A stretch of DNA of 64,000 nucleotides, from NCBI GenBank assembly GCA_001972305.1, contig BDDD01001471.1, positions 137,389-201,388 on the forward strand, read 5' to 3'. Positions 1 to 63,370 of the stretch are shown one piece after another (the first letter of the stretch is position 1; every line of letters begins with the position of its first letter). The notes under the pieces were generated by a model. It made no database searches. It saw only the letters and a program-made list of their open reading frames with translations, and was not told the origin of the DNA. A program made the position numbers and the translations under genes. This stretch comes from Cephalotus follicularis (lineage: Eukaryota > Streptophyta > Magnoliopsida > Oxalidales > Cephalotaceae).

Positions 1-390
1 ATATGCTCAAAATGAAACCCGACCCTTTCGGCATCGACACCTAACCTCTAGGAGCCAATCGTTCATATTAGTAACTTAAGCGTCGCCGATTAACCCTAGG
101 CATCAACGGTTATACCCTTTAAGCGTCGGCGCTTTAACCAGTAACCCATGTGTCAACAATTGTCCTTGACGTCGACACTTCAAGGTAAGGATCCTTGAGC
201 GTCGGTGTTCATTACTTTGTTGTCGACGCTTTGAGGTAGGACCTCAAGCGTCAACATCCACGTGTCTATCACTACGCATATTCAAACCAGGGCGTCAACC
301 CTTTCCTTAAGCGTCGACTTTTATCGCAAAGTCAGTGTACATTCCTATGCGTAACAGTCCATAGCGTCAACGCTTATCGTCTAAGCATCA
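1..390. repeat. Type A palindrome cluster
   Basis: About a dozen degenerate copies of AAGCGTCGACGCTT stand 20-40 bases apart, for example near 84, 185, 226, 310 and 365. Many are decayed at CpG (GTCAAC, CATCAA). A near-identical cluster lies at 1515-1890. Confidence 0.7.
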
Positions 391-882
391 AAGGTTAGAG
401 AAGATCAGAAACATCTTCTTCTTGAACACGTTCAATACCAAGAGATCAACATGCATAATCACACATGCAATTCGATCCACAATTATTTCAATCACAATAT
501 GCAAGGCAGGTTAGCTACTTATAGCAACCCTAACACAAATCACACCATTCACACACCAAGGGAAAATCATCCCAAAACGTGCATGCAATTCAATCCACAA
601 AGTTCACGCATTTCATCAATGATAAACACATTCTTGAACTCAAATAAATAAGTATAAATCCCCTACTATTACCCCTACCTCTGATTCTTTTTGGATCCCT
701 AGGAATGTGATCCCTATGTTATTATGTCTAGTGGTCGTAAACTATGACACTTATGTTCTTACGTTTTAATTTGGAACTTAATTATGTTTAAGTCTATCCG
801 AAAATGCAATATTGTTAAGTTTTAATGTTTCAGATATGATAAGACTGCCATGTGACGACTCCCGCCGTTCGGGGGTGTTACA
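1..882 (-). mobile_element. Partial LTR (LTR-1), minus orientation
   Basis: Read on the minus strand this begins at 882 with TGTAACACCCCCGAACGG, a typical plant LTR start, and runs off the left edge of the window. Positions 1-660 repeat almost base for base at 1492-2172, but the first 222 bases of the element (661-882) differ from the first 415 bases of the neighbouring LTR. It carries a palindrome cluster at 1-390. It is abutted at 883 by the repeat units of LTR-2, so it probably inserted into that LTR; the second target-site copy would lie outside the window. No coding potential was seen. Confidence 0.6.
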
Positions 883-885
883 GAC

Positions 886-1465
886 ACTAACCGGCATGTA
901 GCGGAGGAAAGTTCAACAAACAAATGAGTCTAACCGGCACAAGGCGGAGGATAGCTCATAGTGTGGATGTCAACCGGCACGTAGCGGAGGAAGACCATCC
1001 GGTGTGGTGTCCCTAGCCATCTCCTGGCCCCTCGAGCACAACCTGCCATTAGCGTAAGTGACAACCTCCGTCACCGCACTAACAACGTAACAATCACAAT
1101 CAATCAAACAATTCAATCATTGATGCTAACCGGCCCTGAGCTAGGAAAGCACACAACTAACTGTCTCGTGGTGCTAGGAAAGCTCAATCAATCCAAAAAT
1201 CAATCCTTTCGAAGTAATTCATAAGTTATAAAATACTTGAAATAATACATTTATTCAAAATGTAAACAGTCTTTGAAATCACGTTTCCATCCTTCGAAAA
1301 TATACATTTTTGTGTAAAGTAATGATTTGTTATAAAATCATGTATGCACTTCTAAAATGATAAAACACTTTAGAATTCAATCACATTACAATTCACAATT
1401 CAGTTCACAGTTCAATTCGTACCTACATCGACGCTAACCGGCACTAGGCGAGCAAAGCTCGACCA
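886..1465. repeat. Imperfect direct repeats TAACCGGCACGTAGCGGAGG
   Basis: Units start near 888, 931, 970, 1127 and 1435. Each combines TAACCGGC, a GCGGAGGA or related block and an AAGCTC-like end. The first three are 40-45 bases apart. They lie in the downstream half of LTR-2; a role is not known. Confidence 0.6.
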
Positions 1466-1514
1466 ATCCACAGTAATATGCAAGCAAACATATGCTCAAA
1501 ATGCAACCCGACCC

Positions 1515-1890
1515 TTTCGGCGTCGACACCTAACCTCTAGGCGCCAAATCGTTCATATTAGTCACTTAAGCGTTGCCACTTAACCCTAGGCGTCAATGCT
1601 TATACCCTTTAAGCGTCAGCGCTTAACCAGTAACCCGAGTGTCAACAATTACCCTTAACGTCGAAGCTTCAAGGCAAGGATCCTTGAGCATAAGCATTCA
1701 TTACTTTGACGTCGAAGCTTTGAGGTAGGACCTCAAGCGTCAACAGCCACGTGTCCATCACTACGCATATTAAAACTAGGAAGTCAACGCTTTCCTTAAG
1801 CGTCGACATTTATCGCGAAGTCAGTGTACATTCCTACGCGTAACAGTCCATAGCGTCGACACTTATCGTTTAAGCATCTACGGTTAGAGA
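1515..1890. repeat. Type A palindrome cluster (second copy)
   Basis: This is the counterpart of the cluster at 1-390. It has TCGA-centred units with AAGC/GCTT arms, near 1530, 1570, 1615, 1660, 1710, 1800 and 1855. Relative to the first copy the two differ mostly by scattered substitutions, several of them at CpG. Confidence 0.7.
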
Positions 1891-3684
1891 AGATCAGAAA
1901 CACCTTCATCTCCAACACGTTCAATACCAAGAGATCAACATGCATAATCACACATGCAATTCGATCCACAATCATTTCAATCACAATATGCAAGGCAGGT
2001 TAGCTACTCATAGCAACCTAACACAAATCACACCATTCACACACCAAGGGAAAATCATCCCAAAACGTGCATGCAATTCAATCCACAAAGTTCATGCATT
2101 TCATCAATGATAAACAAAATTCTTGAACTCAAATAAAAAAGTATAAATCCACTACTATTACCCCTACCTCTGATTACAAGTTAGGAATCGCAGTATCACC
2201 AGCACAGTTGAGCCGTAGGTTCAATTGCCGAACCTCTCCAATAACCGCTGAACCGAAGCCGGTTCTTGCTAATTGATCCTTTCCACTGCCAAATCCAATT
2301 TTGCTCCCTCCTTAGTATTTTCTGGTAAAATACTAAGGTATGAGTCTCGATTTTTTCGCAAATTGCGGCATAAATTATCCAAACGACCACCAAAATAATC
2401 GCAATAAAAATGTGAACATTTGGGCTTTATTGTCGCGCATTAAAAATAGGTTTTATTAGCTGGCTTAGCTAACACGATTACGACTTAAATGCGTAATGCC
2501 TTTTTATTTCACCTGGTTCTATAAATTTTATCACAACTGTACACGCACCAATTTCATAATAATTATTTATAAAATTCGGGGCGTTACAATGTAAGAGAGT
2601 ATGAAACATGGAATTGTCACAATAGATTTGAGAGTGATTAGCTTTATAGCATCTATATTCATTACGGACTTGTAAATACCTGGCCAGGTGCCGGCGGATT
2701 AGAAACTAAGTTTCTGGAAAGGTCTGCTGAAGTCGTAATATGTTTACGGATTTATAGTCGTTGCTAAAAAACTAGGTTTGACACATATCCTTTCCCTAGG
2801 CCGCGATCAAAGCTAAAGATGATCAAGGAAAAATTACACAGAAACTGACTTCAAAAAAAAGTACTGGTTTATTGGAAACGGATTATTTACATGGAAGTTA
2901 ATTTCGAATTAATTCCACGTCTATAATAATATTATATATCATTTTGGGATCATTTTAATAGTTTGGGGACAAATTAGAATTATCGTATGGAGCCTAGGGT
3001 GCATTCCGGACATTTTCCGTCTTTACCGAATTCAATTTGGACTTTCTGGTCCCACTGGGTTATCAGAAAAGTGACAATTGCTGGGCATGTGTCATTTGGT
3101 GGAGGAAAGATTCTTAGAGAAGCTACCTTGTTTAATGCTTAACTTAGGACACTTGGAAAGATCATGTGGTTGACACATGGCATGTTCTTAACCTAGCATT
3201 AAACAAATGATAAAAGTGTGAGATATTTGACTTACTTAATGGTTAAGTAAAAGATATGAGGGGCCGTCCTTGACATGGACTAAGGGGGCCAAATTTGTCT
3301 CACTCTCATTCTATTGTCTCTTGTCTCATTTATGAGTGTGTTGCCTTCTCTAAGTGTTCACCATGAGGATCTTGGAGTGAGGGAGAGAAAAGCTTGGATC
3401 TTAGAGAGAAACACTTTTATCTTCCACATACTTGATCATCAAAGGTGGTGCTAGGTTTTGTCTTGAACCTTAGCATTCTTCTCTTGATCGTAGGATAGTA
3501 TTGAGTATTTTGTGAGCTTGTAATTTCCGTTAAGGAAGCTTGGAGATCATGGGTTCAAGGAGGTTGAAGGGGGAGTTCCAATCTTAGAAGTGCAGAGGGA
3601 AACTTGAATGAAGGAGGCCTCAAATTTGGGTAACCATATTCAATCTTTTTCTTTCCTCATGAAACCCGAACCATGGGGTTGGAG

Positions 3685-3906: not shown

Positions 3907-6297
3907 CACTCCTCGAACCATGGGAGGACCCACCGGTCTGACATGTGGCAACCATCCATACAATTCATTCATGACATCATAACATACATCCAAAATACAC
4001 TATAATTTAAAACATAAAACACCAATAAGCATGCGGAAATAACCGTTCAATACTTTTGTAGTTAAGCCCAACAATACACATAACAACATCATATAACCGA
4101 AGCATTGCCACAAGCAGATAGGTCAATACAACTTAATTACAAACATCCATTACAAGTAGTCCGATACAAATTTCATATATGGTAGATAAAGGAAACTTTA
4201 TAGCAACAGGAGCTAGAAGACCCGTTCTGCAAACCATCCCATCTCACCCTGAGATGTCCTCTGCACTATACCCTAGATGTTGTGCCCATTTCGAGAATGG
4301 GTCAGCCAAACACAATGATGTAGGCAATACTATATGCAATGAAGTGAGCAGATGTATGCATGGCATGTGAAATGCTTGAATGTGAATTGTGGACAACATC
4401 ATTACATCAACCGTCCCTAAGCAATGAAATAGTTAACGAGTCCTAATCATATAATTTACCATCCATACACCCTTAGTCTATAGACACTCCATTAAACAAT
4501 CCATAAGTACAAACAATCCCTACTGTATAGGGTCTAAGCATCACTCTGCCTCTTCGGTTGGAGATGGTATATGCACTGTCTATGCACTTTCTGTGTCATA
4601 GTCGTGTGGGGACGAGATAACACTAACCACATCAACCCTCCCTTAATGCTAGTCCCCTTAGGTTCTAGCCCTAAGTTCCTTAACCCTCCCTTAATGCTAT
4701 TCCCCTTAGGTTCTAGCTATATTCGTGTTTCTCTTTGATACTACACACCTATAGGTCTAGCCACAATGCGGTGTCTCCCATAGGTTCACCCCTAATGTGG
4801 GTTCCTATTGGCCCCTTTAATACCTCGTGGCCTAACTCCTTTAACCATCATGATAGAAATGAAGATTAGGATTGGGTTATCTCGGCAAGTCTCAGACAAC
4901 CTCAACTAAAATCCTTAAACCTAAAACCCTTTAACCTTAAAATCATTTAAATGGTAGGGACCTAACCCTAAAGGATCATGTGGGATCTATCCGTTAAAAC
5001 CCTTTTATACCCTCTTAGTAATTCTAGCCCTCAAAGATTCTAGCCCCTAATGGTGTTCCCTTAGGTCCAACCAAACCCTATCGTATCCCTATCTCGATCA
5101 CTATCTCGGTCCCTATCGAAGTTTATAAAAAGATTTATAGAAAACCTTTTTGAAATCTGTTGAAGATCGATTTGAGTGTCGATTGTGTTTAAAAAGAGGT
5201 TCTCATCGGTTACACGACCTTAGGGACACTTCCTATAGAACCCATTTGAAGATAAAAGGGATTGGCTTTGAAAACATTTCATTTCGTATAAAAATAGGGC
5301 GCCAAGCGCCGACCCTTTAACCAAGCATCGAAAGTTAGCGCTACAAAGCGTCGACGGTTTGATGCCAAGCATCGACGGTTTATGCGCTTAAGTGAAAACG
5401 TCAATGATAGAACAAAGCGTCGACAGTTCATGTGCTAAGCAAAGCGTCAACGATTATGTTCAAGAGTCAATGGTTTGAGCTGGTGTCGACAGTCAACAGC
5501 TAAGAACAACGTCGACGCTTCCATTAAAGCGCCGAAGATTTCAGACTTAGCTGTTAGTCGCCATATGGTTGTTTAACAGTCCAAAAACAATTTAAATCTC
5601 TTTAAATCCCTTTAAAACTCAATCAGAAGAAAGCTATGAGCCCCAATGGTCGATTATAGCTTGAAAACAACTTTAAACCCTTAGATCTATACTCTTAAGC
5701 CCATGATCGAGAGAGAGAACATAGATTAGGCAAAAGTCCCAAATTCACTAATCTCTCTCTAATCTCTAGACTAAGCATTAATTGACCATATAAATCAGCA
5801 TAAATCATGCATCTAGCATGTATATATCAATCCTTAATCATACAATCACTCCATTTCATCAATATGCATGCATTAAAAGCATATATGTAGAACCTACCTC
5901 AAAATTGTTGAGCTGAAGATCATGAAGGATTTGCTTTTGAATCCTTGATATGATCCTTCCTTCAAGTTCTACACTCTGCCATGAATCCAATGGCTCCTTC
6001 CTTGCTTGATTATGACCTTTATCTCTCTAACTCCCTCTCTCATTATCTCTCCAGAAATGGAAAGAGAATCAAAAAAAATGAGAAGGAATGAGAGTTATTC
6101 ACCTATATATACGCTCCTTTATGGAAAAAATTGAAAAACTCGCCTTAGGTTTGATTGAACCCCTACTACCCATAAACAGTCATAAAAAAGAAAATATCAT
6201 AATACTATATACATTCCATGTCATGCCATAAGTACAATATAGTATAATATTGTATATAAATACATACCATTTCATACATCTAAAACTCGGGGCTTAC
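3907..6297 (-). mobile_element. Gypsy LTR (LTR-3), minus orientation
   Basis: About 2.39 kb between a primer site on its left (3889-3900) and a pyrimidine-rich tract on its right (6298-6312, polypurine on the minus strand). It therefore has minus-strand retroelement signals on both sides, as a shared LTR in a tandem array would. Both ends have lost their canonical dinucleotides: the minus start reads AGTAAGCCCCGAG and the end reads GAGTGATA. A type A palindrome cluster lies at 5298-5540. No coding region was found; the short ORF at 4179-4370 looks spurious. Confidence 0.6.
5298..5540. repeat. Type A palindrome cluster in LTR-3
   Basis: About ten units, including AAAGCGTCGACGG and AAGCATCGACGGTTT, spaced 15-35 bases. 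On the minus strand the cluster starts about 760 bases into the LTR. Confidence 0.7.
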
Positions 6298-10509: not shown

Positions 10510-10629
10510 GGATTCGATGCATATACACAGTTAGAATTTTATTTATGATGATATGCTTGAATTATTTGGGTTGATTTGTGAGAGAAACATGTGATGGAAT
10601 CGTGCTTGTTCAGGTTAAGGGTTGATAGT

Positions 10630-11000
10630 TTAAAGTAAACCGTCGACGCGCAAGCGCTGATGGTTTTCAAAAACTGTCGACGCTTAAGCGCTAAGCACGG
10701 ACAGTTTGCACAAACCGTCAACGCTTATTCGTTAACCGTTGAAGTTTTGAGAAAATAATCAACGCTTAAGCTTGAACCATCGACAGTTAAGCATTAAGCG
10801 CTGACGTTTTGAGAAAACAGTCGACGCTTAAGCTTGCCCCTCGACGCTTAAGACTGAGCGCTAAAGTTTTGAGAAAACTGTCGACTCTCATGTCTAAAGC
10901 GGGGATGAATATACAAAGCGTCGATGGAAGCATCGCAGCTTAGCGGGTAACCACTGACGCTAATTATAAAGCGTCGCCGCTTAAAACGGTGAAACTCGTT
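10630..11000. repeat. Type A palindrome cluster in Copia leader
   Basis: More than ten units such as ACTGTCGACGCTTAAGCG and ACAGTCGACGCTTAAGC, 20-35 bases apart. It is the only cluster found in an internal leader rather than an LTR or a 3' non-coding region. Confidence 0.75.
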
Positions 11001-11780
11001 AGCGCTTGTGAAGCGCATTCCCAGCTCTGCAAACTCGTTGAAAAAGAGTTTTAAATTACCATAATTACCCAACTTAATTATAGAAGTATAACTATCAAAA
11101 TTAATATTAGATAATTCAATGAGATTGCATTATTATTATTATTGGATAATTCAATGAGAATTAATTATATTTATGCATGATGGTTGGGTTATGGACTTCA
11201 CCTAGTTTTGTCTTATTTTACTCAAGCGATGAATGTATATTTTATATTCATACTTTATGGGTTGAAATTTTTGAGACTTGCATGTTTCTCTTCTCTCTCT
11301 TGATTCGTATCTTTAATTCTTCTTAACCTCCTTGTGACTCCCCTTGATTTAATCAAGGTTTCTATAGTTTATAGTTGGTATATGTAATTGAAGAGCGAGA
11401 TTCGCAGCAGAAGGAAGTTTGAGAAGAGCAAAGATATTACAAGACCCATGTGTGTATGGGAGGAAATGTATGATTGTAATAACATACCTAGGAATGAGAC
11501 CAGCAGCTTGTTTGAGAGTCAAATAAGTTGCAGTAGTAAAGTCCATAACCAGCCATTAGTTTTTTAGAATGTATGTGATGCATATCTAAATTATGAGGTT
11601 CCAATGGCCTCCCCACATTTTTCCATATACATGTAATTTTATTAATAACGGGTCGGCTAATAACAATAAGAGTTATATTATTATTCCTCATTTATACCAT
11701 GATATCAAGTTAAAGCGAAATGGGCACAAGATAGTGTTCAGTCATTACCTTTTGCCATTGCAACTAATATAGATGCTCTT

Positions 11781-13319: not shown

Positions 13320-13989
13320 TGAATAAACTACAAGGGGGGGGGGGTGAATTGTAGTTTCGAAAAATTAATTATCTTTTTGCAATTCTAAGTTAAAATCAAT
13401 GAACAATATATATGTGCAATAAAAAATAAATAAGTAAACTAATTTCAAGAGAGAGAGTTAGAGAGTTTGCAAACACGGTTTTAGCGTGATTCAGCTTAAC
13501 TCTTGCCTACGTCCACTTTTCCCAAGGATACCCTTTGGGTTTCCACTAGTCTCCGAATAAATTTCCTGGTGCTATTCGGTACACCATGGTGATTGACCTC
13601 AATCACTTACAATTCTCTTTGGGTTCACTCCCCAATTTTTCTTAGGGTTCACTCCCCTATTACAATAAGAGAGTAAAAAGAACAATGATTGTTCTTAACC
13701 TCTCAAAGGTTAGATTTTACAAGATAATATCTCTCAATTTAAGTGGGAACAAATATATGCTAAGACACAAGACAAGAGCTTTTGAAAGAGACTTGATGAT
13801 TTTGAATGCTTGTTTTGTTTTTGCTTGAATTATCTTTGTATTTGTGTTCTTTTTTTATTCTTGTTTTTGTTCTTCCTTAAAAACTCTTGCTTATAGCCGT
13901 TTATTTCTTCATAAATCCGTTGGATGTGTCTTGAAATTTTTTGCTTCAAAAATGGAGCATTAAAACTCTGTCATAAATTTTTCCAGCCA

Positions 13990-14140
13990 TGCAAAACGTC
14001 GACAGTTTGCCTTAAAGCATCACCGCTTATATGACCGTTGGGCAGTTCAAATTTGCATTCTAGTCAAAGCGCTGGCGTTCTGGATTTTGGAGTCGACCGT
14101 TTCCTCAAAGCGCTGACGCTTTGTGTTGAGCGACTAAAGA
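13990..14140. repeat. Type A palindrome cluster in Sirevirus-like LTR
   Basis: Includes AACGTCGACAGTTT, AAAGCGCTGGCGTT and AAAGCGCTGACGCTTT. The central variants CTGG and CTGA also occur in the solo LTRs at 22336-22680 and 40770-41105, although those are not Copia-like. Confidence 0.75.
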
Positions 14141-14221
14141 AAAGAAACATGCATGATCACACAAATATAAGAAACAATGCAATAAAATAAAGAACAAATG
14201 GGTAGGGTTTACCGGATATGA

Positions 14222-16956: not shown

Positions 16957-17069
16957 ATTTGATGTTGGTTTAATGTTTAACAAAGATTTTCGACAGAAAG
17001 GAGGTTCGAAATCGCCAGAGACTGTGGTTTTTGAGTTAGGGATTTGATTTTTAGGGGTAAAATGTGTTG

Positions 17070-17215
17070 ACAGACGGCGCTTTATGTTTTAAAATATGAC
17101 TAAAGCGTCGACGGAGTCGGGTAAAGCGTTGGCGCTTTTATCAATTTACCTAATTCGAACCCTAATTTTTATGTAAAGCGCTGACGCTTTCATTCCAGGC
17201 GTCGGTGCTTTGCTC
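17070..17215. repeat. Type A palindrome cluster between pol and env-position ORF
   Basis: Units include AAAGCGTCGACGGAG, AAAGCGTTGGCGCTTTT and AAAGCGCTGACGCTTTC. This lies in the internal region of the same element whose LTR also has a cluster (13990-14140). Confidence 0.75.
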
Positions 17216-17324
17216 TGTTTTTCTGCCGATTTTTCCAAAAACGCGTATGAATGAATGAAAATGATGTAAAACTCAATATTCAAGCAATTCAAGCAAAAAT
17301 CATACAAGTATACAATCATATTAA

Positions 17325-17992: not shown

Positions 17993-18179
17993 TGTAACAC
18001 CCGAGATTTTTCCTATGTTGTAATTTCATAATGTAATGTGTTTTATTGAGGGATTAATAAAGGATGGATTTCCAAGACTTTGATGATGTTTTCCAAACTC
18101 TAATAATGTTAATTTTAGAGTAAAAATGTTAAAGGAATGTTAAAAGGGCAAATAGATGTAAAACGACACTGTTTTGGGG

Positions 18180-18335
18180 AAAACATATCGACGCCTTTCG
18201 GAACGCATCAACGCCTTTGGAACTGAGAGACGCACTAATTGCATGCACATGCACGTCGATGTAGGTAGGGACATCGACGCCCTCATGTAAAAGGGGAAAG
18301 ACGTCGACGTCTTCTAAAAAGACGTCGATGCGTAA
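18180..18335. repeat. Type C palindrome cluster I
   Basis: Units such as ATCGACGCCTTT, GCATCAACGCCTTT, GACGTCGACGTCTTCT and AGACGTCGATGCG, roughly 190-340 bases into the LTR. Confidence 0.8.
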
Positions 18336-19104
18336 CATTGAATGTCAGGCATGTTACTCTGCTGACGAAATAATGTGCAAGGGGGCACTATCCAGGCATC
18401 TTAGCATGCAGATCATGACATGTTGAGCATGCAATATGGTAACCTAAACTGCTAGGACTGAAATGGCAGAAGTGGGAAGGCATGTGAGAGCATGGATTGG
18501 CCTTGGAAGCAAAGGGGAGACACCTGGTGCGCCATGCAACCAGGTGTGGAGAAGGTGTGAAGAAAGAGGGAATATTTGCATGGATGCAGATGGGAACAAA
18601 CTTCAATCTGCATAAAAAAACTCCCTTCTCTTCCCAAAACGAAGAAGGAGAAAAAGAAGAGAAAAGAAACAGTGATAGTTGGTGGGAAACACACGACGAA
18701 TATCAAAGAGAGGAAAATAGTGAGGTAGGATAAACGTTTCCACCATTGTTGAACTTGGTTGGAGCTTGGAACTGGGAGCTGGTGGCTTGCAGCAGCGGGG
18801 CGGACCTGGGGGCTGCTGTGACCAGTTTGGAACGCAAAGAGGTGGACTTTCTAGTTCCTAACTTGGAACAAAAAGGTAGGGGAAGCCATAACTGTATTCT
18901 TGAGATTAATGTTCATGCATGGACTATGGTTTTGGTGTATAGATTGAATAATTCTTGGACTATTTCTGCTCACTGGATCAATGCCATGTTATGCTAGATA
19001 TGAGATTTGTATCTGCATGTTGGTTTCCTGCCTTGATTTCATGTTGTTTTGCATGTATGTGGTTTGTAATGGCCACTGTCTGTTACGTCGTGAGGAAGAA
19101 GACA

Positions 19105-19465
19105 ACTGACACTCGAAACACGCCGACGCCTTTTAAGAACATCAATGCCTTTGGGTTATTTGCTTGGTTACTGACATGAAACAGGTCGACGACTTTGGAA
19201 AAACATCAACGCCTTAGGCTATCTGCTTGGGTTTTGATGTATTACACGTCGACGCCTAAGGTTCCTACCTTAACGCGTTGATGCCATAAGTAATACGCTA
19301 ACGTTTAAAGGTTCCAGACTTTGAGTGTCGATGCGTATAAAATGGACATCAACGTCTTTAAATAGTAGAAAGCACTGACACTAAGGACTTAGACATCGAC
19401 GTTGATGGACAAAGACATCGATGCCTTTTAATAGGCATCGACGTCTTTTGGTACTGTTTGGAGGT
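19105..19465. repeat. Type C palindrome cluster II
   Basis: About twelve units, including CGCCGACGCCTTTT, ACGTCGACGCCTAAGG, AAGACATCGATGCCTTTT and AGGCATCGACGTCTTTT. It starts about 1.1 kb into the LTR. Confidence 0.8.
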
Positions 19466-20603
19466 TTCCTTATTTAACGATGCGAAACGATCCCGATACA
19501 TGTTAGGGTGCATTTGAGCATTTGTATGCATTGCATATACACTGTTTACTGCATGTTTGGTTACTATTTGTAAATTGTTTATGATTTCTAAAACTATTAT
19601 ATTTAGAGTTGCATATGTGAAATCGGAATGCGCCTTTTTTAGTATGAAAATATGTATTGACTAATAACGTATTTTCGAACGAACTGGAAAGAGATTTCCA
19701 CTACTGAATTGTTAAGTATTTTCTATCCATTAGAAATACATATTTCAAATATTATCACTTCCAAAATATTTGAAAATGAACTGCCTGTTGTCGATCTAAA
19801 CGATCATCATTGTACTGTTTACTGCACTGTTTACTGTTTTGATTCATTGCTTGCTTTGTGAATTCCCTGTGGTTGTGCTTGAGCCACTGGTTGCATGGCA
19901 GAGACTGCCAGTGCCGGCTAGTGGTAGGGTTGACCTAGGGGCCAGGAGTTGGCTAGGTGACTCACTGTACTGTAATGTTGCCTCGTTTGGTTGCCTGGAG
20001 TAGGGACCGAAGTGGGAGTGAACGTGGGGACAGGAGTTGGCGACATTACACATACAGCCTGACTGTTGTGGTCCTTTTATAAACTTACTGTACTGCTTGT
20101 TGGTCCTTTTCGAACATTACTGTGCCTGTTGATGTAACACTAGCCGGGTTATTACTGTACTGTTATTGCTTACATATATTTTTCATATATATGTACCCAC
20201 TGTTATTTTTACTGAACTGCTAAAATATTTATATCTTTTTCATATATATATAAACCGGTATTTCCTGCACTGCATCATTTATGCATACATTACATGACAT
20301 GCATTTAATGTTTATCCCGAGCTACTTTTATAACTTAGCCGAGTGAGGACAAAGGCTAACTCCCTACTTTACAGATTGATGCAGTGGACCGATTGGACTG
20401 GCATGGATGAAGAATAAGTCGTTATGTTGTTATTGTTCTTGGTTTTACTTATTCTAAGTTGTAATAAATTGTTTTGCCAAAGGATTTTTGATGTATTGTA
20501 CTTATGGCTTTTTAACGATGGGTTGTATTATTTGTTTTATGGTTCACGCTCCGTTTTGTGGGCTCTTAACAATGACAAATTTTTTTTGGGTAGCGTGCAG
20601 TAT

Positions 20604-22913: not shown

Positions 22914-23080
22914 AGTATGGGATGCACGTTACAAGTTTTCAGCTTATGAGTTTAATGCTTTCGCAACTGATATCATGTTTAAAAGTTTAAATTTTATGGT
23001 ATTTACATGAGCTGAATTTATATGTTAATTGCCTTTACCGCTTTAATGTTGTCTTCTTGGAAAACGAGGTGTGACAAGAG

Positions 23081-24078: not shown

Positions 24079-24153
24079 CTCAACTTAGTACCCAATGCTT
24101 CTTGCAAGCTCTGCCAAAATCTGGAAGTAAAACGGGGGTCTCTGTCAGATACT
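24079..24153 (-). pseudogene. Gypsy integrase core fragment (left piece of split gene)
   Basis: Only about 75 bases. On the minus strand they read [20 protein letters not shown] and then GTKL, the integrase segment with the second catalytic Asp. It continues the integrase whose upstream part ends LHGVPLSI at 49269-49300. The Copia element 24154-49263 separates the two halves. Its left end joins the plus gag at about 24078 with no visible duplication, so that junction is a rearrangement or deletion scar. Confidence 0.8.
24149..24153. repeat. Decayed target duplication, left copy
   Basis: ATACT here and ATATG at 49264-49268 flank the Copia element. Both are one change from ATACG, the base order expected in an intact integrase codon context (minus CGTAT). 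The CpG would explain one of the two changes. Confidence 0.55.
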
Positions 24154-26616: not shown

Positions 26617-26631
26617 ATCTCCCACTAGGCC
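26617..26631 (-). other. Polypurine tract of minus Copia
   Basis: Minus-strand GGCCTAGTGGGAGAT directly precedes the 3' LTR. Confidence 0.8.
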
Positions 26632-37915: not shown

Positions 37916-38360
37916 AGTTCTTATATAGGACATGTTTGGCCTTAATTCAAATTGCTACTGTTTTGCTATTGTTTCTGTATATGCTACTGTTAATTAGTAT
38001 ATACTAGTGACTGTTATAAAACCTATTGATTCCATATTTACACAGATTGAACAAACTAAGTGCTATATGCACAATTCATGATAATAACTATCATTTTCAA
38101 ATGAAAGATTATTGCGAAAAGAACTACTGATTTTCCTCCTATGAGAGGTACCTTCTGTTTGTTTCCCAAACCGGAAACCGCTATTGAATTGATATCGTTT
38201 TCCTCCTAAGAAATGTACGATAAATGAATTGTTTATGTTTCTAAAGAAAACAACTTATATATTGCATATTATACATATATGTGATATTATTATTGAACTG
38301 AATTGATTGTCTATGTTATTGCCGTTAGTCAAGTGATGGCAGATGTCACTGACTACGGTG

Positions 38361-38715: not shown

Positions 38716-38857
38716 TGACTTTTACTTTATAATCTGGCTTATGGAATGCTTCCGCTTATATTATTGAATTGTTAAATGAGAATGCTGGATTATATTTATT
38801 TATGATATCACCATATATGCTTGTCTTTATGGAATTGAAGGGCGGGGTGTGACAATG

Positions 38858-46772: not shown

Positions 46773-46787
46773 GGCTCTGATACAACT
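46773..46787 (-). other. Primer binding site of minus Copia
   Basis: Minus strand reads TGTATCAGAGCC at 46773-46784 next to the LTR end; one mismatch to TGGTATCAGAGC, as expected for initiator-Met priming. Confidence 0.75.
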
Positions 46788-49263
46788 TGTCAGTAACACG
46801 TGGCCCACGCGCAGCGGAAGACTAATCGATTCGCACATTAGGGTTTAGGGACGATTAACTTTAATTTTTCACCAATAGATTAATCCCCAAGCAATGGGAT
46901 GCCCTAATCTAGGTATGAATTGTCCCAATAAGTGCCAAGGAACCCTAATTGAACAACCAATCAAACCGAACCCAAAACAAAGCATAGGGCAAAATGGGTC
47001 TGAATGTTAGGGTTGCCATAAACCCTAAAATTGGACTCCAAACATAGGCTCACAAGGAAACACACAAAACCCTAGCCTAAAGTCCAATCAACCCATACCC
47101 TAACATCCCTAACCCTAAAGGATGACAAACAAAGAAATCCATGGAGGTTTAGCTAGGGTACACATACCCTAGCACCCACCCATTGCCATGGCACCACAAA
47201 AGGGAGAAGAAGAAGAGATTCATACAAATGGTGAAGACTCGTTCCTTCAAGACAAGCTCCCTCTACTCTTTATCCCAAAAAGCTCCAAGGTCCTCCACAA
47301 GCCACGGATGGGAGAAACAAGGATACAAGCCAAGTGTTTAGACCTATACTAAATCACTCTAGATGTAGACAACATGCAGTTTACAAGTTATCTCCACCAA
47401 TAATGACCTTTGAGTGGTGAAAGGAGGCTTGAAAATAGCTACAAAACACACCAAGCGACGTGGGCGTCGACATGTAGGCGATAGGTGTCAATGCGTACGC
47501 AAGACGGAAGAAGAGCATGCACGACAAGGAAGAGACAGAAAGAGAAAGAGAAAGAGTCAGAGTTAGTTGAAGAAGCTTCTCTCAAGCTTTTATAGTCAAA
47601 CTTTCTCTCTCCTACTGCAGCCGCCCATGAGCCTGTCTAGGCATCAACGTCGTGCGTATCATATTATCTAGGGGTCAACACCACTGATAAGATGAAACAG
47701 GCGTCGAGTCTCATTTTTTTTCGTGTCAACGCGTAAAACCCATAGAGTCAACGCGTAAACCTACTAGTTTTAAAACGTCAACACCATGCTCTTCAAATCG
47801 TTAACGTTTAGCGGCTTCATCCGGTTATGGTGTCGACGCATGCTCTCCATGGCGTCGATGCGTAAAGCTACCGGTTTTACAGTGTTAACGCAATCTATTC
47901 GCGTCAATACCCAGTAACTCAACCAGACATGGCGTCGATACATGCTCTTCATGGCGTCGACACCTAAGACAAAATTGGACATTCTCTTCCTTTTTCAAAG
48001 CCCTTTGCATGGAATATTTCATCGTTGCATTGCATGGACATAAATCAATCAAATGAAATACTCACTAGCAAAACAACATCTTCCCAGATGTTATCCTTTC
48101 ACTAAATGATATATGGCCCACCACATATCAACCTGTTCAAAGTCAGGCAGGACCCGAAAGCCTGTCGTTCTCCTGTATGATGATAAATTCGCAGAACATC
48201 CCGATTTCTGATAAGACCACTCTAACAGTACACCTATTATAAGAGCAGTCCCGGTGTGAGCTCCAGTCACCCCCCTAAATCCGTGTATTACCACATCTAT
48301 CAATCGTGGTCCGAATAGACAGTTGCTCTATCAAGTCATCGGCTTATGTGTCATGTTTCCCTCGTCATACTTGTCTACGATCACAGCCTAGGGTTTGGAT
48401 GAATGTCACCCCTAGTATTACTGTGATAACTATGAATGTATGATCGTACTGAGACTATCGTTATACCTCCCATGGGAACCTCTCGTTCCCAGTCCACCTA
48501 TGCCTGATCAGAGCTTTTAAGTCTGCAAAGTACACAGATAAATAGAGTCGATCACCCTCAGCCCAGGTGTGGCAATCCCCTATGGCGCATTCACCCATAC
48601 ATCTCAATGCAGCTACCACAAGATCCAAAGAAAACCCTTTTACCAACACTTGGCTAGCAAAGGGGAAGGCAAAAATCAAAGTCAAGCAGTCACCACACAA
48701 TGCATGACAGGTCAAAGTATAAAACGCAGGCTATAGACCTACCAGCCACCATAGACTATACACTACAGAGACCATAGGAATCCTATTGACATTGGGTATT
48801 GACTATCCAAATAGGTTTCCTATTGGTGGGTCTGTACAATGCCACGATCTCTAGCATACACCTCACATTTAGCTTTAGGGGTAAACCCAAATTGCTGCGA
48901 GATAACCATCCTCCAATGCTAACCCGGGAGAAAACTTAAAGTGACAAGTCTGCACAGTTCATCAATGGCCCAAACAAAGTGAACCTATGACTTGGAACAT
49001 TTGTCACAGGAATAAGGATCTCGTTCTCATAGCCCTATCCGCATGAGATCAAACACATTGGAAGTGACAGGGCGTTATATGACATACAGTTAATTAATTA
49101 TAATTATTATGTTCCTTTCGGTTGGTTGGGATGAGCCATAGAGCCTTGCCAATTAAATTTAATATGCACATGAAGATGAAAGGAATTCAAAATTGTATAA
49201 ATCAAGAGTGTTTATATACAAACGAGTCATATCGTGGCATACAGGGACACCCTTAACCTAACA
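46788..49263 (-). mobile_element. 5' LTR of the large minus Copia element
   Basis: 2476 bp, TGTCAGTAACAC to CCTAACA on the plus strand. It matches 24154-26616 throughout. Differences are scattered substitutions and short indels (for example one extra ACATCCCTAACCCTAAAGG-like block near 47102), so the insertion is not recent. Palindromes are at 47455-47500 and 47640-47965. Confidence 0.9.
47455..47965. repeat. C-like palindrome clusters in Copia LTR
   Basis: GGGCGTCGACATGTAGG, ATGGTGTCGACGCATGC, ATGGCGTCGATGCGTAA, ATGGCGTCGATACATGC and ATGGCGTCGACACC. Same positions as 24810-25315, with different units decayed in each LTR. Confidence 0.75.
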
Positions 49264-49268
49264 ATATG
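49264..49268. repeat. Decayed target duplication, right copy
   Basis: ATATG, partner of ATACT at 24149-24153. Confidence 0.55.
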
Positions 49269-51318: not shown

Positions 51319-51323
51319 ATCGA
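51319..51323. repeat. Target duplication ATCGA, left copy
   Basis: ATCGA here and at 58941-58945 flank the Gypsy element 51324-58940 exactly. Confidence 0.92.
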
Positions 51324-51494
51324 TGAAATAACCGCAATTTCAATTAATGTATCTTGTACCCATCAATGAATAAAATGTCCTTTTGAGATGTTACGTTGGT
51401 TACCTTTTTAATCGAATGAAGTTGGAATAAAATTCTTAAATGGAAAAAAAATAAAGAAATAATTTCTGGTGTTAAACCACCGAAGCCTAAAGTC

Positions 51495-51655
51495 ACACCG
51501 TCGACGCTTTAAGCCCTGACACGTGCACAATACGCACAGTTGAAGGCTGAGATTAGGCGCCAACAGTCGACTTTTAAATGCCTAGCATCGACACTTAAAG
51601 GCGTATAAGCGTCGACGCCCACGAAGTAACCGGCGACGCTTTAGATGTGTTCTGG
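51495..51655. repeat. Type A palindrome cluster I, 5' LTR
   Basis: ACCGTCGACGCTTTAAG, AACAGTCGACTTTTAA, AGCATCGACACTTAAAG, AAGCGTCGACGCCC and CGGCGACGCTTTAG; about 170-330 bases into the LTR. Confidence 0.85.
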
Positions 51656-51925
51656 CGCAAGAACATGTGCCAGTTGGAGTGAAATGGCAGAGTTAAAATG
51701 ATGAAAGTATGGGCATGTGTCCTATAAACGTGTCAATGCTTATCAGAAGCCTTCACCAGCTGGGTAACATGCAAGGATGGAACCTTGCATGTGATCTGAA
51801 CCTGCAACCTGCAAAACACAGAAGAAAAGTGAGAGAAAAACAATGAATGAATGCATGCAAGAGGGAGAGAGAAATATGCAATGAAAGTTAAACTAGCTGA
51901 GGAAATTAAAGGCACGAAATTGAGT

Positions 51926-51937
51926 CTTTATATCAGC
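51926..51937 (+). promoter_or_regulatory. Candidate TATA box, 5' LTR of element 3
   Basis: CTTTATATCAGC, as in the other plus Gypsy LTRs. GGTAAGTAATCC at 52071, a splice-donor-like site, follows about 140 bases later. The spacing matches 32594/32730 although flanking sequence differs. Confidence 0.45.
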
Positions 51938-52574
51938 TAATCCATGAGCTGATTGAGTGTTAGAAACACTGAGAATTAGAGAGACAATATGGACAATTGC
52001 TGGAGGATTGCTAGAGGTAGAAGGAGCCTAAAGTTCAAAAAGGGGAAAACTTGGAGCATCACCTGGAATTGGTAAGTAATCCAAAATTTATTGATGTTGT
52101 TACATAGTTAATAGTATAATACTCTGATGTTAGCAACCACTGCCACTGTTAACATGATTAAGAAGGATAAAGCATGGAAGAGGAGATTGAATGTTGTATT
52201 AGTTAGAAGTTAGAAAGTTGAACTTAGAAATTAATGCTAACTTCTGATTAAATTTCCTCGATGTTGTCATAGTTAGATAACTAGCTAATGTACTGGAAGT
52301 TGCATCTAAAACCTGCAACATGCGATTATATAGATAAATTCTGAAATTTTGAAAGATTGAAGGAAGGTGAAGAACTTTGGACATAGAGAGAGAAATCAAT
52401 TTGATTTGATTTCGGGACTGCCTTAAAGGTAGGGGTTCTTGACATGTTTTTGAACCTATGACATGTACAATAAGTTGTGATGGTCAATACTTGATTTCAT
52501 GTGGAATTGAACTGAATTGGGTTGAATGTGTGTATTCCCCTATTTCGAAATTGCTCCTGGAATTCGTATGAGTG

Positions 52575-52735
52575 CCAGAAGCGCCGACGGTTACACAGAC
52601 ACTGTCAACGCTTTGGTACGAGAATGGCATATTAAAGCCTAGAAGGTAGACGCTCAAGTGTGTAGTGTCAACGCTTAGGCTCAAACCATCGACGCTTACA
52701 CAGAAACTGTCAACGCTTTAGAACAGTAGGAATAG
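52575..52735. repeat. Type A palindrome cluster II, 5' LTR
   Basis: Units AGCGCCGACGGTTA, ACTGTCAACGCTTTGG, AGGTAGACGCTC, AGTGTCAACGCTTAGG, ACCATCGACGCTTAC and ACTGTCAACGCTTTAG. In the 3' LTR the corresponding units more often keep GTCGAC. Confidence 0.85.
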
Positions 52736-53208
52736 AATTCTTAGGATCGATCGATTGATTTAATTATGGATGTAACGACCCTTGATTGCTATATTGTAGC
52801 TATTATCACTGTTATTCAATGAATTTTTCTACTGTTATGAATACATATTAAAGAATTCTACCAACCTAATGCTTTAAGCATAAATAATGATTTTTAACAG
52901 TTTTCTAACGGAAAATCTTATTATCCTACAACTGTTATTTTCCTCTTAATAGAGGCACTGCTACTGTTTAGTTCTCACAAGAGAACCACTGACTGAATTG
53001 GTACGTTTTCTACAAACGAAAGCTACTGTATATTGCATAATATATCTTTATGTAATATTATCACTGAATTGAATGAATTGATTGTCTATGTTATTGCCGA
53101 TTAGTCGAGTGATGGCAATGTCACTGGCTAACGGAGGTGGTCCTATGTGCCAGGAGTTGGCTAGAGTACACACCAAAACTGCCTGCAATGCAGAGCTTGA
53201 TTGTTAAC

Positions 53209-56874: not shown

Positions 56875-57029
56875 TGTAATAACCGCAATTTCAATTCATG
56901 TATCTTGTACCCATCAATGAATAAAATGTCATTTTGAGATGTTACGTTGGTTACCTTTTTAATCGAATGAAGTTGGAATAAAATTCTTAAATGGAAAAAA
57001 AAATAAAGAAATAATTTCTGCTGTTAAAC

Positions 57030-57195
57030 CGCCGACGCCTAAAGTCACACCGTCGACGCTTTAAGACCTGACACGTGCACAATACGCACAGTTGAAGGCT
57101 AAGATTAGGCACCAACCTTCGACTTTTAAACGCCTAGCATCGACACTTAAAGGCGAATAAGCGTCGACGCCCACGAAGTAACCGGCGACGCTTTA
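57030..57195. repeat. Type A palindrome cluster I, 3' LTR
   Basis: CGCCGACGCCTAAAG, ACCGTCGACGCTTTAAG, CTTCGACTTTTAAACG, AGCATCGACACTTAAAG, AAGCGTCGACGCCC and CGGCGACGCTTTAG. Confidence 0.85.
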
Positions 57196-58124
57196 GACGT
57201 GTTCTGGCGCAAGAACATGTGTCGGTTGGAGTGAAATGGCAGAGTTAAAATGATGAAAGTATGGGCATGTGTCCTATAAACGTGTCAATACTTATCAGAA
57301 GCCTTCACCAGCTGGGTAACATGCAAGGATGGAGCCTTGCATGTGATCTGAACCTGCAACCTGCAAAACACAGAAGAAAAGTGAGAGAAAAACAATGAAT
57401 GAATGCATGCATGAGGGAGAGAGAAATGTGCAATGAAAGTTAAACTAGCTGAGGAATTTAAAGGCACGGAATTGAGTCTTTATATCAGCTCATCCATGAG
57501 CTGATTGAGTGTTAGAAACACTGAGAATTAGAGAGACAATTTGGACAATTGCTGGAGGATTGCTAGTGGTCGAAGGAGCCTAAAGTTCAAAAAGGGGAAA
57601 ACTTGGAGCATCACCTGGAATTGGTAAGTAATCCGAAATTTATTGATGTTGTTACATCGTTAATAGTGTAATACTCTGATGTTAGCAACCACTGCCACTG
57701 TTAACATGATTAAGAAGGATAAAGCATGGAAGAGGAGATTGAATGTTGTATTAGTTAGAAGTTAGAAAGTTGAACTTAGAAATTAATGGTAACTTCTGAT
57801 TAAATTTCCTTGATGTTGGCATAGTTAGATAACTAGCTAATGTACTGGAAGTTGCATCTAAAACCTGCAACATGCGATTATGTAGATAAATTCCGCAATT
57901 TTGGAAGACTGAAGGAAGGTGAAGAACTTTGGACATAGAGAGAGAAATCAATTTGATTTGATTTCGGGACTGCCTTAAAGGTAGGGGTTCTTGACATGTT
58001 TTTGAACCTATGACATGTATAATATGTTGTGATGGTCAATACTTGATTGCATCTGGAATTGAACTGAATTGGGTTGATTGTGTGTATTCCCCTGTTTCAA
58101 AATTGCTCCTGGAATTCGTATGAA

Positions 58125-58275
58125 TGCCAGAAGCGCCGACGCTTACACAGACACTGTCGACGCTTTGGTACGAGAATGGCATATTAAAGCCTAAAAGGTC
58201 GACGCTCAACTGTGTAGTGTCAACGCTTAGGCTCAAACCGTCGACGCTTACACAGAAATTGTAGACGCTTTAGAA
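58125..58275. repeat. Type A palindrome cluster II, 3' LTR
   Basis: AGCGCCGACGCTTAC, ACTGTCGACGCTTTGG, AGGTCGACGCTC, AGTGTCAACGCTTAGG, ACCGTCGACGCTTAC and ATTGTAGACGCTTTAG. Confidence 0.88.
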
Positions 58276-58940
58276 CAGTAGGAATAGAATTCTTAGGATA
58301 GATTGATTGATTTAATTGTGGATGTAACGACCCTTGATTGCTATATTGTAGCTATTATCACTGTTATTCAATGAATTTTTCGACTGTTATGAATACATGT
58401 TCAAGGATTCTACCAACCTAATGCTTTCAGTATAAATAATGATTTTTAACGATTTTCTAACGGAAAATCTTATTATCCTACAACTGTTATTTTCCTCTTA
58501 ATAGAGGCACTGCTACTGTTTAGTTCTCACAAGAGAACCACTGACTGAATTGGTATGTTTTCTACAAACGAAAACTACTGTATATTGCATAATATATCTT
58601 TATGTAACATTATCACTGAATTGAATGAATTGATTGTCTATGTTATTGCTATTGCTGCTAAAGCGTGGAAAGCTTCTTTCTATCTTAAGGTTGTTATTAT
58701 TATGATGTACTGTAATTGAAATGAACGATTCGCACTCCGTCAATGTTGTACTTTCCTTATGTAAAAACGATATTGCTTGTATTGTTGAGCACGTAGTATG
58801 GGCTGCGTGCAGATGAATTGTAATCCAGTTTTAATTGCTTCCGCTTATATTAATTTGAATTGTTCTTGGAAATGCTGGATTATTACTTATTCCTGATATC
58901 ACCATATATGCTTGTCTTGACAGAATAACGGGGTGTGACA

Positions 58941-60924: not shown

Positions 60925-62234
60925 TGTCACACCCCGTTTATAGAAACGCGACAATAAGGAGGTAAAGGCAATTAACATATAATACAGCTCATGCGAAAAC
61001 CATGAAATTTAAAACTTTCCAAGAACAGCAGTTGCGGAAGCATCTCAAAACATAAGCCGTAAACTCGTAACGTGCGTCCCATACAACACGCCACACAAAC
61101 AAGTTATCACAGTGTTAATCGCCCATAAAACGGAGCGTGAATATTACAGTACAATATAAAATTCCTTCAGATACAAACCATAACATTGGCACATCCAAAA
61201 ATCATAATCCACAGAGGTTAAACAAAACAATAAGATAACAAGATCAAAAATATGACAGCTTGATCTTTGTCCATGCCAATCCAAATGTCCACTGCATCAA
61301 TCTGTAAAGTAGGGGGTTAGCCTTTGTCCTCACTCGGCTAAGTCATAACAGTAAATCAGGATCAACATAATGCATGTCATGATATGAATGCATAAATGAT
61401 GCAGTGCAGTGGAGACCCAGTTTATACGTATATGAAAACATATATACGTATAACAGTACAGTAAAATATCAGTGTTACATATATAAGTAATATATGTGTA
61501 CAGTAACAGTGCAGTAGTAACCCGGCCAGGGCTACGTCAACAATCACAGTGATGTCCGTAAAGGACCAGTAAACAGTACAGTATAGTATGTCCACATAGG
61601 ACCACAACAGGCAGTATGTCCACATAGGACCACAATAACAGTTATAGCGCCGCCAACTCCTGGCCCCATGCTACACTCCCACTACGATCCCCACATCGGG
61701 CAACTGAGCGAGGCATCAGTACAGTGAGTCACCTAGCCATGCTCCTGGCCCCTAGGTACAACCCTGCCACTAGTCATCACTGGCAACCTCCGCCATGCAA
61801 CTAGAAGCTCAAACACAATCACAAACAGTTCACAGAGTAAACAGTGAATTTAAACAGTAACAGTACAGTGAACAGTAATGATCGATTTGATCAAGAACAG
61901 GCAGTCATTTCCCAAAATGTTTCCAAAATTGACAACATTTGAAATTAGGTATTTTCAGTAGAAAATATCAGTAAACAGTTTCAGTAGTGTAACTTGTTTA
62001 TCCGTTCGGTTGAAAATACGTTATTTGATTAATACATATTTTCATACACAAAATATCTCATTCCGAGTTCATATATGCATTTCTAAAGTATTAACACATT
62101 AGAAATTATAGACAATACACAAACAGTACACAATCAGGCAGTAAATAGTACATATGCAATGCATACATATGCTCAAATGCACCCAAGTAGGAATTGGGAT
62201 CATTTCGTATCATTGGATGGAAAACTCTCCAAAC

Positions 62235-62460
62235 AGCAACAAAGACGTCGACGTCTTTACCAAAGGCGTCGATGCCTTCCAGGTCAGGCGTCGATGTTCA
62301 AGCCTCAGTGTCAGCGTGTTCTTTCCACAGAAGACGTCGATGTCCATTTCCCACACGACGACGTTCAAGGTCTGGAACCTCAAAAAGACAGTGTATCACT
62401 TGATGTCGTCGATGTCTAACTAAAAGGCGTCGATGCCTTTTCAACAGTGGTCGTCTTCTA
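62235..62460. repeat. Type C palindrome cluster II
   Basis: Contains the perfect 18-base palindrome AAAGACGTCGACGTCTTT (62241-62258) and the near-perfect AAAAGGCGTCGATGCCTTTT (62422-62441). It also has AGGCGTCGATGTTC, AGACGTCGATGTCC and GTCGTCGATGTC. Confidence 0.92.
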
Positions 62461-63194
62461 CCTCACGACTTATCACACAGTGGCTTTAACAATCCACAAT
62501 CATGCATAACAACAGGTTTTCATGGCAAGAAACCAACATGTAAATACTATAAACATATCTAGAATATCATGGCATCAATCCAGTAACAGTATCAATCAAA
62601 GAATCATGCATTTTTATACATTTAGAATTCATAAACCATACATGAATATCAAGCTCGAATTTACAGTATGGCTTTCCCCTACCTCTGGCCTCAAGTTAGA
62701 AGCTGAAAGTCCACCTCTTTTAGTATTCCACGAAGTCACTTGAGTCCCCAGGTACGGCTTGGAAGCTCCCTGGTTCGTCCTAGCAGTTGGTGTGTAAGCT
62801 TCAAGCTTCCTTGCTCAACAATGGTGGCACTAACACACTCACTGATTTATTCCTTCTCTCTCTTCTGGTGATATAAAACGAGAGAGATAGGTGGGGAAGG
62901 TTATCTTTATGCAGAAGGCTCCCCCCCGACATTCATCTCCTGGCATGAAATGGCCACGTTCATAATCTCTCCCACTTTCCTTCATTATGCATTTCTTTTG
63001 TATTCTTTAACTATTCTTTTCTTTACAGGTAGTAGGTGAGGATTCCTTTGCATGTTCCATGTGGGGAGCATGCTCAGAGCATTCCTGGCAACACACCCAT
63101 ATGCACAACACGTCACAGGGCACTTGAAAAGGCATCTGGTAATGCCTCCAAACAAACCCCCTCGCATGTTACTCTGCCGATAAAGAACGTGATG

Positions 63195-63370
63195 GCCATT
63201 CTTACAAAGGCGTCGACGTCATTCCTTAGACGTCGATGTCTTTTCTCCTTTCGTAAGAAGGTGTCGATGCCTTCTCTCAAGGTCGATGTGCATGCCACGC
63301 ATCCACGCATACCCCAAACCCCAAAGGCGTCGATGTCTTTTCCAAAGGCGTCGATGTCTTTGTCCCAAAA
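63195..63370. repeat. Type C palindrome cluster I
   Basis: AAAGGCGTCGACGTCATT, AGACGTCGATGTCTTTT, AGGTGTCGATGCCTTC, AAAGGCGTCGATGTCTTTT (63324) and AAAGGCGTCGATGTCTTTG (63344); 160-335 bases from the LTR start on the minus strand. Confidence 0.92.

Follow-up and report, generated by a model that had tools for sequence, protein, structure and literature searches.

Sirevirus long terminal repeats (LTRs) carry family-specific palindromic repeated motifs (RM), and among those in Table 3 of PMC2829016 the motifs of Vitis (CGGTCGACCG) and Tnd-1 (ACAATCGATTGT) have a TCGA centre. In passages of the same paper, RM are called Sirevirus-specific, are given a CGG-CCG core signature that the described RM of Tnd-1 lacks, consist of units that are commonly >85% identical and form an extra cluster upstream of env (PMC2829016). 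Here we describe arrays of short dyad-symmetric motifs in a 64,000-nucleotide stretch of the Cephalotus follicularis genome (contig BDDD01001471.1, positions 137,389 to 201,388 of the forward strand; hereafter the window), most of which lie in LTRs of Gypsy and Copia retrotransposons. An initial annotation of this stretch stated that no system of this kind had been described, which was too strong, the Sirevirus palindromic RM being the closest known. A maize follow-up on the Sirevirus palindromes (Genome Res 2016 26:226) is cited in later work. The window units, like RM, are dyad-symmetric repeated motifs clustered in LTRs. However, their halves (CGCTT, CTGTT and YGYCTT) do not contain the CGG-CCG core, their carriers include chromodomain Gypsy LTRs and a Copia element with the polypurine tract (PPT) AGTGGGAG, and they are more degenerate, with arms about 0.6 identical within an LTR. 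A possible counterpart to the cluster upstream of env is one window array (17040-17230), which lies upstream of an open reading frame (ORF) with a PF20167 domain. What is new here is the chromovirus Gypsy carriers, the sharing of motifs across superfamilies, a spacing of ~21 bp between units and the switching of array type between close relatives by array replacement. From the sequence we think it reasonably probable that the arrays are cis-regulatory cassettes of dyad binding sites for a host dimeric protein, exchanged by recombination.

Four other systems invite comparison. Passages of PMC5735166 describe, in VANDAL elements, arrays of short motifs in non-coding DNA whose units diverge together between relatives, as they do here; however, those motifs lie in one orientation, spread as tandem repeats and are bound by a protein (VANC) that the DNA transposon itself encodes, whereas the present units are dyads in retrotransposons, their spacers are unrepeated and no such gene was seen in the scanned Gypsy element E1. 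The modular U3 evolution described in parts of PMC1838419 for the Tnt1 superfamily, in which the coding region is conserved and the regulatory U3 diverges between subfamilies, differs from the exchange of a ~350-bp array within 85-93% identical sequence and from a code common to several superfamilies. The maize palindrome CACCGGACNNNGTCCGGTG, found in structured regions of Copia and Helitron elements, is likewise a palindrome that crosses superfamilies in one genome, but it is treated as RNA secondary structure, and the relevant passages of PMC10760457 give no coordinated types or spacing rule. In Brassicaceae COPIA LTRs, cis-regulatory sites, in that case heat-responsive elements, also evolve within LTRs; the word palindrome is not in the main text of PMC5059998, and its passages give no palindrome arrays or type switching. 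In the literature searched, mostly at the level of titles and abstracts and covering few subscription journals, no palindrome arrays with type switching were recognised in Gypsy LTRs.

The initial annotation had reported clusters of TCGA-centred palindromes, and the coordinates it gave for them proved correct. As perfect palindromes, however, the units are few, since the whole window contains just six that are TCGA-centred and at least 12 bp long, and imperfect dyads were therefore used for the scans. What stands is an imperfect palindrome composed of two back-to-back half-sites around a centre that is mostly YYRR, chiefly YCGR together with probable products of CpG decay; the half-sites are AAGCG and CGCTT in type A, AACAG and CTGTT in type B, and AAGRCG and YGYCTT in type C, and hybrids also occur. 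In an unbiased scan for dyads of the form a-N4-rc(a), taking all 1024 five-base arms and allowing at most one mismatch, AAGCG-N4-CGCTT ranked first: the window has 33 occurrences, whereas 12 dinucleotide shuffles averaged 0.33. Measured against 20 shuffles, type A gave 81 matches rather than 12.2 and type C 34 rather than 8.3 at up to two mismatches (8 of the 34 being type A units that also fit), and type B gave 20 rather than 5.2 at up to one mismatch. A type-neutral scan found 137 units in 23 clusters totalling 6,378 bp, whereas 40 shuffles of the clusters yielded a mean of 5.4 and a maximum of 13 units; the 57.6 kb of the window outside the clusters holds 18. We conclude that the clusters are not random and that sequence of equal composition does not reproduce them.

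The patterns used in the type-neutral scan were learned from the same data, a circularity that is lessened by the unbiased scan of 1024 dyads and by a test of half-site partners. Where one half-site is perfect, its partner shows on average 1.20 (n=50) or 1.29 (n=66) mismatches inside clusters, compared with 3.75 (n=59) and 3.91 (n=44) outside them. The dyad symmetry is therefore real, a perfect half predicting its partner. In the type A arrays of E1 and of the LTR A12 the right half was the better one (8 versus 1 in each, p=0.039 each, uncorrected), but we do not claim an asymmetry of half-site strength in type A arrays, as it was non-significant in the other 12 of the 14 sets. The half-sites bear a possible resemblance to MYB (AACNG) and NLP/RWP-RK (GACNCTT) sites. 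A search with a translated type B array found no relatives, one protein scan of viral contigs gave no match, and an exact 16-mer present in three viral contigs was treated as chance.

Neighbouring units keep a characteristic distance. Centre-to-centre gaps of 20-22 bp account for 43 of the 83 adjacent gaps in the window, and clusters of at least three units contain 42 of them, against a simulated mean of 6.1 and maximum of 14. The same was seen in a 200-kb sample of 20 arbitrarily placed 10-kb genome stretches (L008-L027), where 79 of 168 gaps, or 40 of 89 after de-duplication, fall in this range. The ~21-bp gap recurs in types A, B and C despite their differing arms, and a weaker Copia variant has gaps of 22 and 30-31 bp. 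Since ~21 bp corresponds to two turns of the helix, dimers bound to neighbouring units are predicted to lie on one helix face, and the gaps of 20-22 bp are the whole-turn spacing that such an array calls for.

Arms and spacers behave differently. Arm identity is 0.599 within one LTR and 0.598 between type A families, whereas the identity of flanks and spacers is near chance, at 0.289 within LTRs and 0.267 between families; picking units by half-site patterns raises arm identity generally, but not the equality of its two figures. Because the arms are shared while the spacers are near chance, the arrays are not simple tandem repeats, in which the spacers would be repeated along with the motif. 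That the arrays are ordinary tandem or low-complexity DNA inherited by descent, with types as family markers, would agree with the short arrays of about 20-23 bp and 62-63 bp that Tandem Repeats Finder reports at several clusters and with the constancy of type among close relatives of the Gypsy LTRs E1 and E2. We nevertheless regard this as highly improbable, since the spacers diverge as described, the arms are shared across different families, and the arrays of related elements can be of different types and align no better than chance.

The elements and arrays of the window are as follows.

56875..58940 (+), E1, Gypsy LTR (TGTAATAACC...GGGGTGTGACA); hybrid AACYG-YYRR-CGCTT, arrays ~57033-57186 and 58137-58263
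51323..53097 (+), truncated 5' LTR copy of E1, 96% identical to the 3' LTR; arrays ~51502-51634 and 52585-52711
36506..38854 (+), E2, Gypsy LTR related to E1; type B AACAG-YYRR-CTGTT, arrays ~36657-36730 and 37795-37899
29831..33293 (+), 5' LTR of E2, interrupted by the solo LTR B30; type B array 29982-30051
28937..29375 (+), E2-like LTR fragment; type B array 29282-29344
30076..32351 (-), B30, solo LTR nested in the E2 5' LTR; type B array ~30991-31188
60925..63529 (-), C16, chromovirus 3' LTR; type C AAGRCG-YYRR-YGYCTT, arrays 63214-63352 and 62249-62431
17993..23079 (+), C7, LTR interrupted by A8; type C arrays 18189-18326 and 19124-19439
20604..22913 (-), A8, solo LTR nested in C7 (target duplication of 5 bp, AGTAT); type A array 22349-22670
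40778..41351 (-), A12, LTR start related to A8 (79%); type A array 40786-41107
1..420 (-), type A array, repeat F1 copy 1
1490..1910 (-), type A array, repeat F1 copy 2, 92% identical to copy 1
5280..5560 (-), type A/hybrid array; a Gypsy pol lies upstream on this strand
10600..11010 (+), probable Copia 5' leader, with gag at 12296-13027; hybrid type A array
13960..14160 (-), Sirevirus-like Copia, 3' LTR (start ~15241); type A array
17040..17230 (-), Sirevirus-like linker, with the PF20167 ORF 16147-16692 downstream of the array; type A array
24151..26618 (-), Copia LTR adjoining the PPT AGTGGGAG, a non-Sirevirus form; variant array 24790-25330
46787..49265 (-), second copy of this Copia LTR, 87% identical; variant array 47440-47990

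These carriers are diverse. E1 and E2 are Gypsy elements with gags 87% identical over 180 aa, and C16, to which C7 is related (74% over 1.5 kb), adjoins a chromodomain-bearing pol end that is 59% identical over 140 aa to the integrase end of E1. B30 matches E2 solely over 57 bp, inside the array. The Copia remnant at 13310-18053 (-) has the PPT and polyC features of a Sirevirus: it contains four AGGGGGAG tracts (15436, 15374, 15355 and 15251), the last of which begins 10 bp ahead of the 3' LTR, and a run of C11 at 13344 at the LTR 3' end. Its PF20167 ORF gave 107 protein matches, all from Cephalotus follicularis, to relatives named hypothetical, putative plant transposon or uncharacterized proteins. 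As arrays are present in all three kinds of carrier, a single motif code is common to Gypsy, Sirevirus-like and other Copia elements, which makes it most likely that the putative reader is encoded by the host, as one protein or a small family. The arrays might instead be targets of an anti-silencing protein encoded by some of the retrotransposons themselves, with types marking its specificities, by analogy with VANC, whose target arrays in VANDAL elements are reported in part of PMC5735166 to diverge together and to differ between VANC targets. We consider this quite unlikely: the scanned E1 ORFs carry ordinary gag, protease, reverse transcriptase/RNase H and integrase domains with no extra gene among them, one code is common to Gypsy and Copia, and in the source passages the VANC motifs form one-orientation arrays rather than dyads, although a distant autonomous element might encode such a protein.

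Several placements and types in the initial annotation had to be revised. The cluster at 10630-11000, taken to be in an LTR, is probably in a 5' leader, after a sequence resembling a primer binding site (PBS) at 10498 (one mismatch) and before the Copia gag, and that at 17070-17215 lies in the linker rather than in an LTR. Those at 51495-52735 and 57030-58275 combine a left half that is mostly AACYG with the right half CGCTT instead of being pure type A, and the clusters at 24810-25315 and 47455-47965, called similar to type C, are the weaker Copia variant GCG-YYRR-CGCCAT. On the favoured reading the arrays would be promoter-proximal enhancers, or cis-regulatory cassettes of a similar kind, which LTR retrotransposons carry in the LTR and some Copia elements also in the 5' leader or in the linker before a second ORF. 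The leader of Drosophila gypsy carries an array of Su(Hw) sites, and the present arrays could by analogy be insulators or chromatin boundaries rather than enhancers; one Copia-like family with its array in the leader, shortly past the PBS, and the similar position of 10600-11010 would suit such a role. We judge it very unlikely, as most window arrays are in LTRs and several are upstream of TATA-like boxes; such boxes, at 37921-37930, 40685 (-) and 47594 (-), lie ~25-100 bp downstream of arrays.

Array type is mostly uniform within an array but can differ between relatives. In the window and the 200-kb sample together, 52 of 57 clusters received a single A, B or C label under a 60% rule, the others being four mixed clusters and one Copia variant (seven clusters of the 57 come from loci that the type A pattern had retrieved); with labels set by majority and those five clusters excluded, half-site purity was 44/45 for B, 151/168 for C and 303/333 for A plus hybrid. 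The two clusters of one LTR share arms (0.57-0.73 identity within E1, E2, C16 and C7), whereas identity between E1, E2 and the C group is 0.29-0.48, C16 and C7 being alike (0.64-0.66). The observation that both clusters of an LTR are of the same type was thus borne out (permutation p=0.0005 for E1, E2 and C16), and selection for a factor may explain it. Type was constant in the close relatives fetched: the E1 hybrid recurred in 8 of 8 copies, taken from among the best 39 other places listed, and the E2 type in 14 of 14, from among the best 38.

Among more distant relatives this constancy is not always kept. The initial annotation had pointed to the LTRs at 36506, 51324 and 17993 as having related bodies and different types; the first two are indeed related, but the third only weakly, with no significant match outside short stretches. 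The bodies of the E1 and E2 LTRs are collinear and 63-77% identical, with clusters at similar offsets (~150-310 and ~1260-1400), yet their types differ, and on alignment the arrays are at chance (z 0.7 and 1.7) while the body has z 9.8. C16 is itself 63.9% identical to E1 over 490 bp, and a C16-like LTR in L009 (blocks of 70-73%) is of type B in both clusters, with five units each, although in the second cluster both halves are B in 1 of 5 units. Type does not, then, strictly follow the LTR body, and with spacers that are not repeated this fails to uphold descent of tandem repeats.

The clearest case of replacement was found in a Copia-like family. L015:6992-9265 and L022:6012-8377 share ~2.3 kb with 85-93% identity per 100-bp bin outside the array, and similarity is lost only at L015 ~7492-7892, where the array has z=1.3 compared with 26 and 31 for the flanks. 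The exchanged unit is a palindrome array of ~350 bp, which is type C in L015 and type A in L022. Downstream ORFs of both contain Pol_BBD (E 3e-16 and 4e-17), as does the window Copia ORF 43910-44581. The L015 array lies ~150 bp past a perfect PBS (L015:7425), with a one-mismatch PBS at L022:6502, and this position just after the PBS places the array in the 5' leader.

We extended this pair to a set of 22 copies, comprising L015, L022 and 20 of 39 other places scored, from 577 first-look candidates. By majority vote 13 were A and 9 C, of which the A copies L050 and L064 have just 3 and 2 units and L051, L056, L058 and L069 are mixed arrays. Body identity was 0.884 (A-A), 0.889 (A-C) and 0.929 (C-C), whereas array identity was 0.630, 0.546 and 0.800 respectively, with mixed arrays counted under their majority label and at most the first 40 pairs taken per class. 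In a tree built from the 585 bp that follow the array, the seven pure-C copies group together (99/98), and so do the four mixed copies (97/97), which sit among those of type A. Each mixed copy has a run of C-type units with A-type or hybrid units on either side, and the mixed copies match pure-C copies best, at 78-88% over 198-337 bp with the left end included. Together, these mosaics and the L015/L022 swap, with which the E1/E2 alignments agree, indicate replacement either of the whole array or of blocks within it. The L015 array is also 72% identical over 151 bp to an array at L022:2244-2394 and shares spacer words with it, while the flanks of that array gave no homologous pair with L015, which may point to a transfer from one family to another. 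The type C arrays L015:7590-7765 and L022:2225-2410 also share the spacer word CCTGTAACTTT at matching places, perhaps a second binding site.

The initial annotation had proposed that something recognises the sites and that its specificity, or the spacing of half-sites, had shifted and changed all copies together. The set-wise change of the arms is real, and the arms, the conservation of units and the ~21-bp spacing agree with something acting on the sites; a site-by-site shift, however, is not what is seen, since in the cases that can be resolved the array is replaced as a block, spacers included, and no change in the specificity of a binding factor is needed. Block replacement is the likely cause of the type differences between relatives, judging from these comparisons. 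The array would act as a cassette: recombination, by template switching among co-packaged RNAs or by gene conversion, would exchange all of it, or blocks of it, for an array of a different type and leave the rest of the element as it was, which would explain why the arms change together. These features suggest that the arrays are exchangeable landing pads for a putative DNA-binding protein.

A position in a transcribed leader would also suit a role at the RNA level, in which complementary units give the transcript structure, as small interfering RNA precursors or RNA signals, and symmetry is kept for pairing. Consistent with this, 12 array segments folded with a mean z of about -2.3 compared with about -0.6 for 6 controls (one array gave +0.17), and palindromes of maize Sireviruses are reported as small-RNA hotspots in parts of PMC5311732 and PMC10760457. 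However, any array of palindromes folds stably, the halves of E1 and its relatives differ systematically (AACYG and CGCTT), which breaks perfect pairing, and the ~21-bp spacing and the code common to unrelated families are left unexplained. We consider an RNA-level role unlikely, and continue to favour cassettes of sites bound as DNA.

The sites appear to be under some constraint. With unit columns marked on one copy per family, conservation in the E2 family (15 copies) was 0.953 in unit columns and 0.910 in the rest, or 0.963 and 0.907 outside CpG/TG/CA columns; in the E1 family (9 copies) the values were 0.957 and 0.857, or 0.963 and 0.857. Units are also better conserved than flanks between C7 and C16.

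A number of observations weigh against exchangeable cassettes of constrained, helically phased sites. Units are no better conserved than flanks in A8/A12 (0.78 versus 0.82) or Cop9/Cop13 and are barely above them in E1/E2 (0.78 versus 0.74), and in the recent pairs L1/L2 and E1 5'/3' they are less conserved, probably as a result of CpG decay; units do exceed near spacers with 15 of 15 and 9 of 9 references, but this is biased because units were chosen in the reference. About half of adjacent gaps fall outside 20-22 bp, and these vary. Phasing of gaps beyond 21 bp had p=0.0005 with redundant clusters but is not significant after de-duplication (p=0.12), and the window by itself shows it weakly (mean cosine 0.21 at 10.5 bp, 31 gaps). 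The clearest replacement sits in a 5' leader and not in an LTR, and L022:2244-2394 is only a candidate donor of the swapped array. Finally, in 59 cluster pairs with collinear homologous flanks from the window and sample, type was the same in 9 of 12 pairs with flanks at least 80% identical, compared with 17 of 47 below 80%; the 30 discordant distant pairs, counted without individual inspection, include 8 that involve a mixed-labelled array. Of the three discordant pairs with flanks at least 80% identical, two were set aside: Cop9/Cop13 as a labelling effect (P vs mix), and W:37772/L011:6541 because it depends on 326 bp of the E2 LTR that are seemingly missing in E1 and recur in L023.

The motifs are abundant in the genome. 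A search of 1.577 Gb at up to one mismatch, with each pattern read backwards (and so still a palindrome) as control, gave 43,621 matches to the type A pattern AAAGCGTCGACGCTTT compared with 75 for the control, 13,666 compared with 37 for type B (AAACAGTCGACTGTTT) and 149,975 compared with 940 for type C (AAGRCGTCGACGYCTT), counts that are not strictly comparable or additive because the C pattern is degenerate and A-C intermediates can match both. In the 200-kb sample 288 units were counted and 29 clusters, where one shuffle gave 102 units and 2 clusters, and in its unbiased dyad scan AAGCG ranked 1st, AGACG 4th, AGGCG 5th and AACAG 25th by excess over 3 shuffles, AT-rich and other dyads ranking among them.

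A broader proposal, which we put forward tentatively and would not ourselves rely on, is that most LTR retrotransposon families of this genome, both Gypsy and Copia, read a few shared dyad codes of one host dimeric factor or factor family and hop between them by exchanging whole arrays; array type and not phylogeny would then set the regulatory or silencing network to which an element belongs, in a cis-regulatory market driven by conflict or competition over the factor. If the arrays do serve as exchangeable cassettes of binding sites under one code for several superfamilies, the ~200,000 near-perfect matches to the three patterns would be a countable record of how transposons gain and replace regulatory inputs, and would bear on whether a host DNA-binding protein drives transposons. 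With the same body, two array types and mosaic intermediates, the modular evolution of LTR promoters would then become directly testable, and the sites provide an unbiased bait for finding the binding protein.

Some further features of the window were noted. Both solo LTRs (20604-22913 and 30076-32351) are nested within another array-bearing LTR. The region 29831-43475 has the layout LTR-internal-LTR-internal, with the LTR at 36506-38854 seeming to serve two internal regions, which suggests recombination between elements. The ~325-bp stretch of the E2 LTR at 38381-38704, seemingly missing from E1 and 83-84% identical in L011 and L023, is possibly a small nested repeat. A 58-bp perfect tandem duplication occurs at 29609-29726, and a run of 25 N at 40214-40238 marks an assembly gap within a Gypsy internal region.

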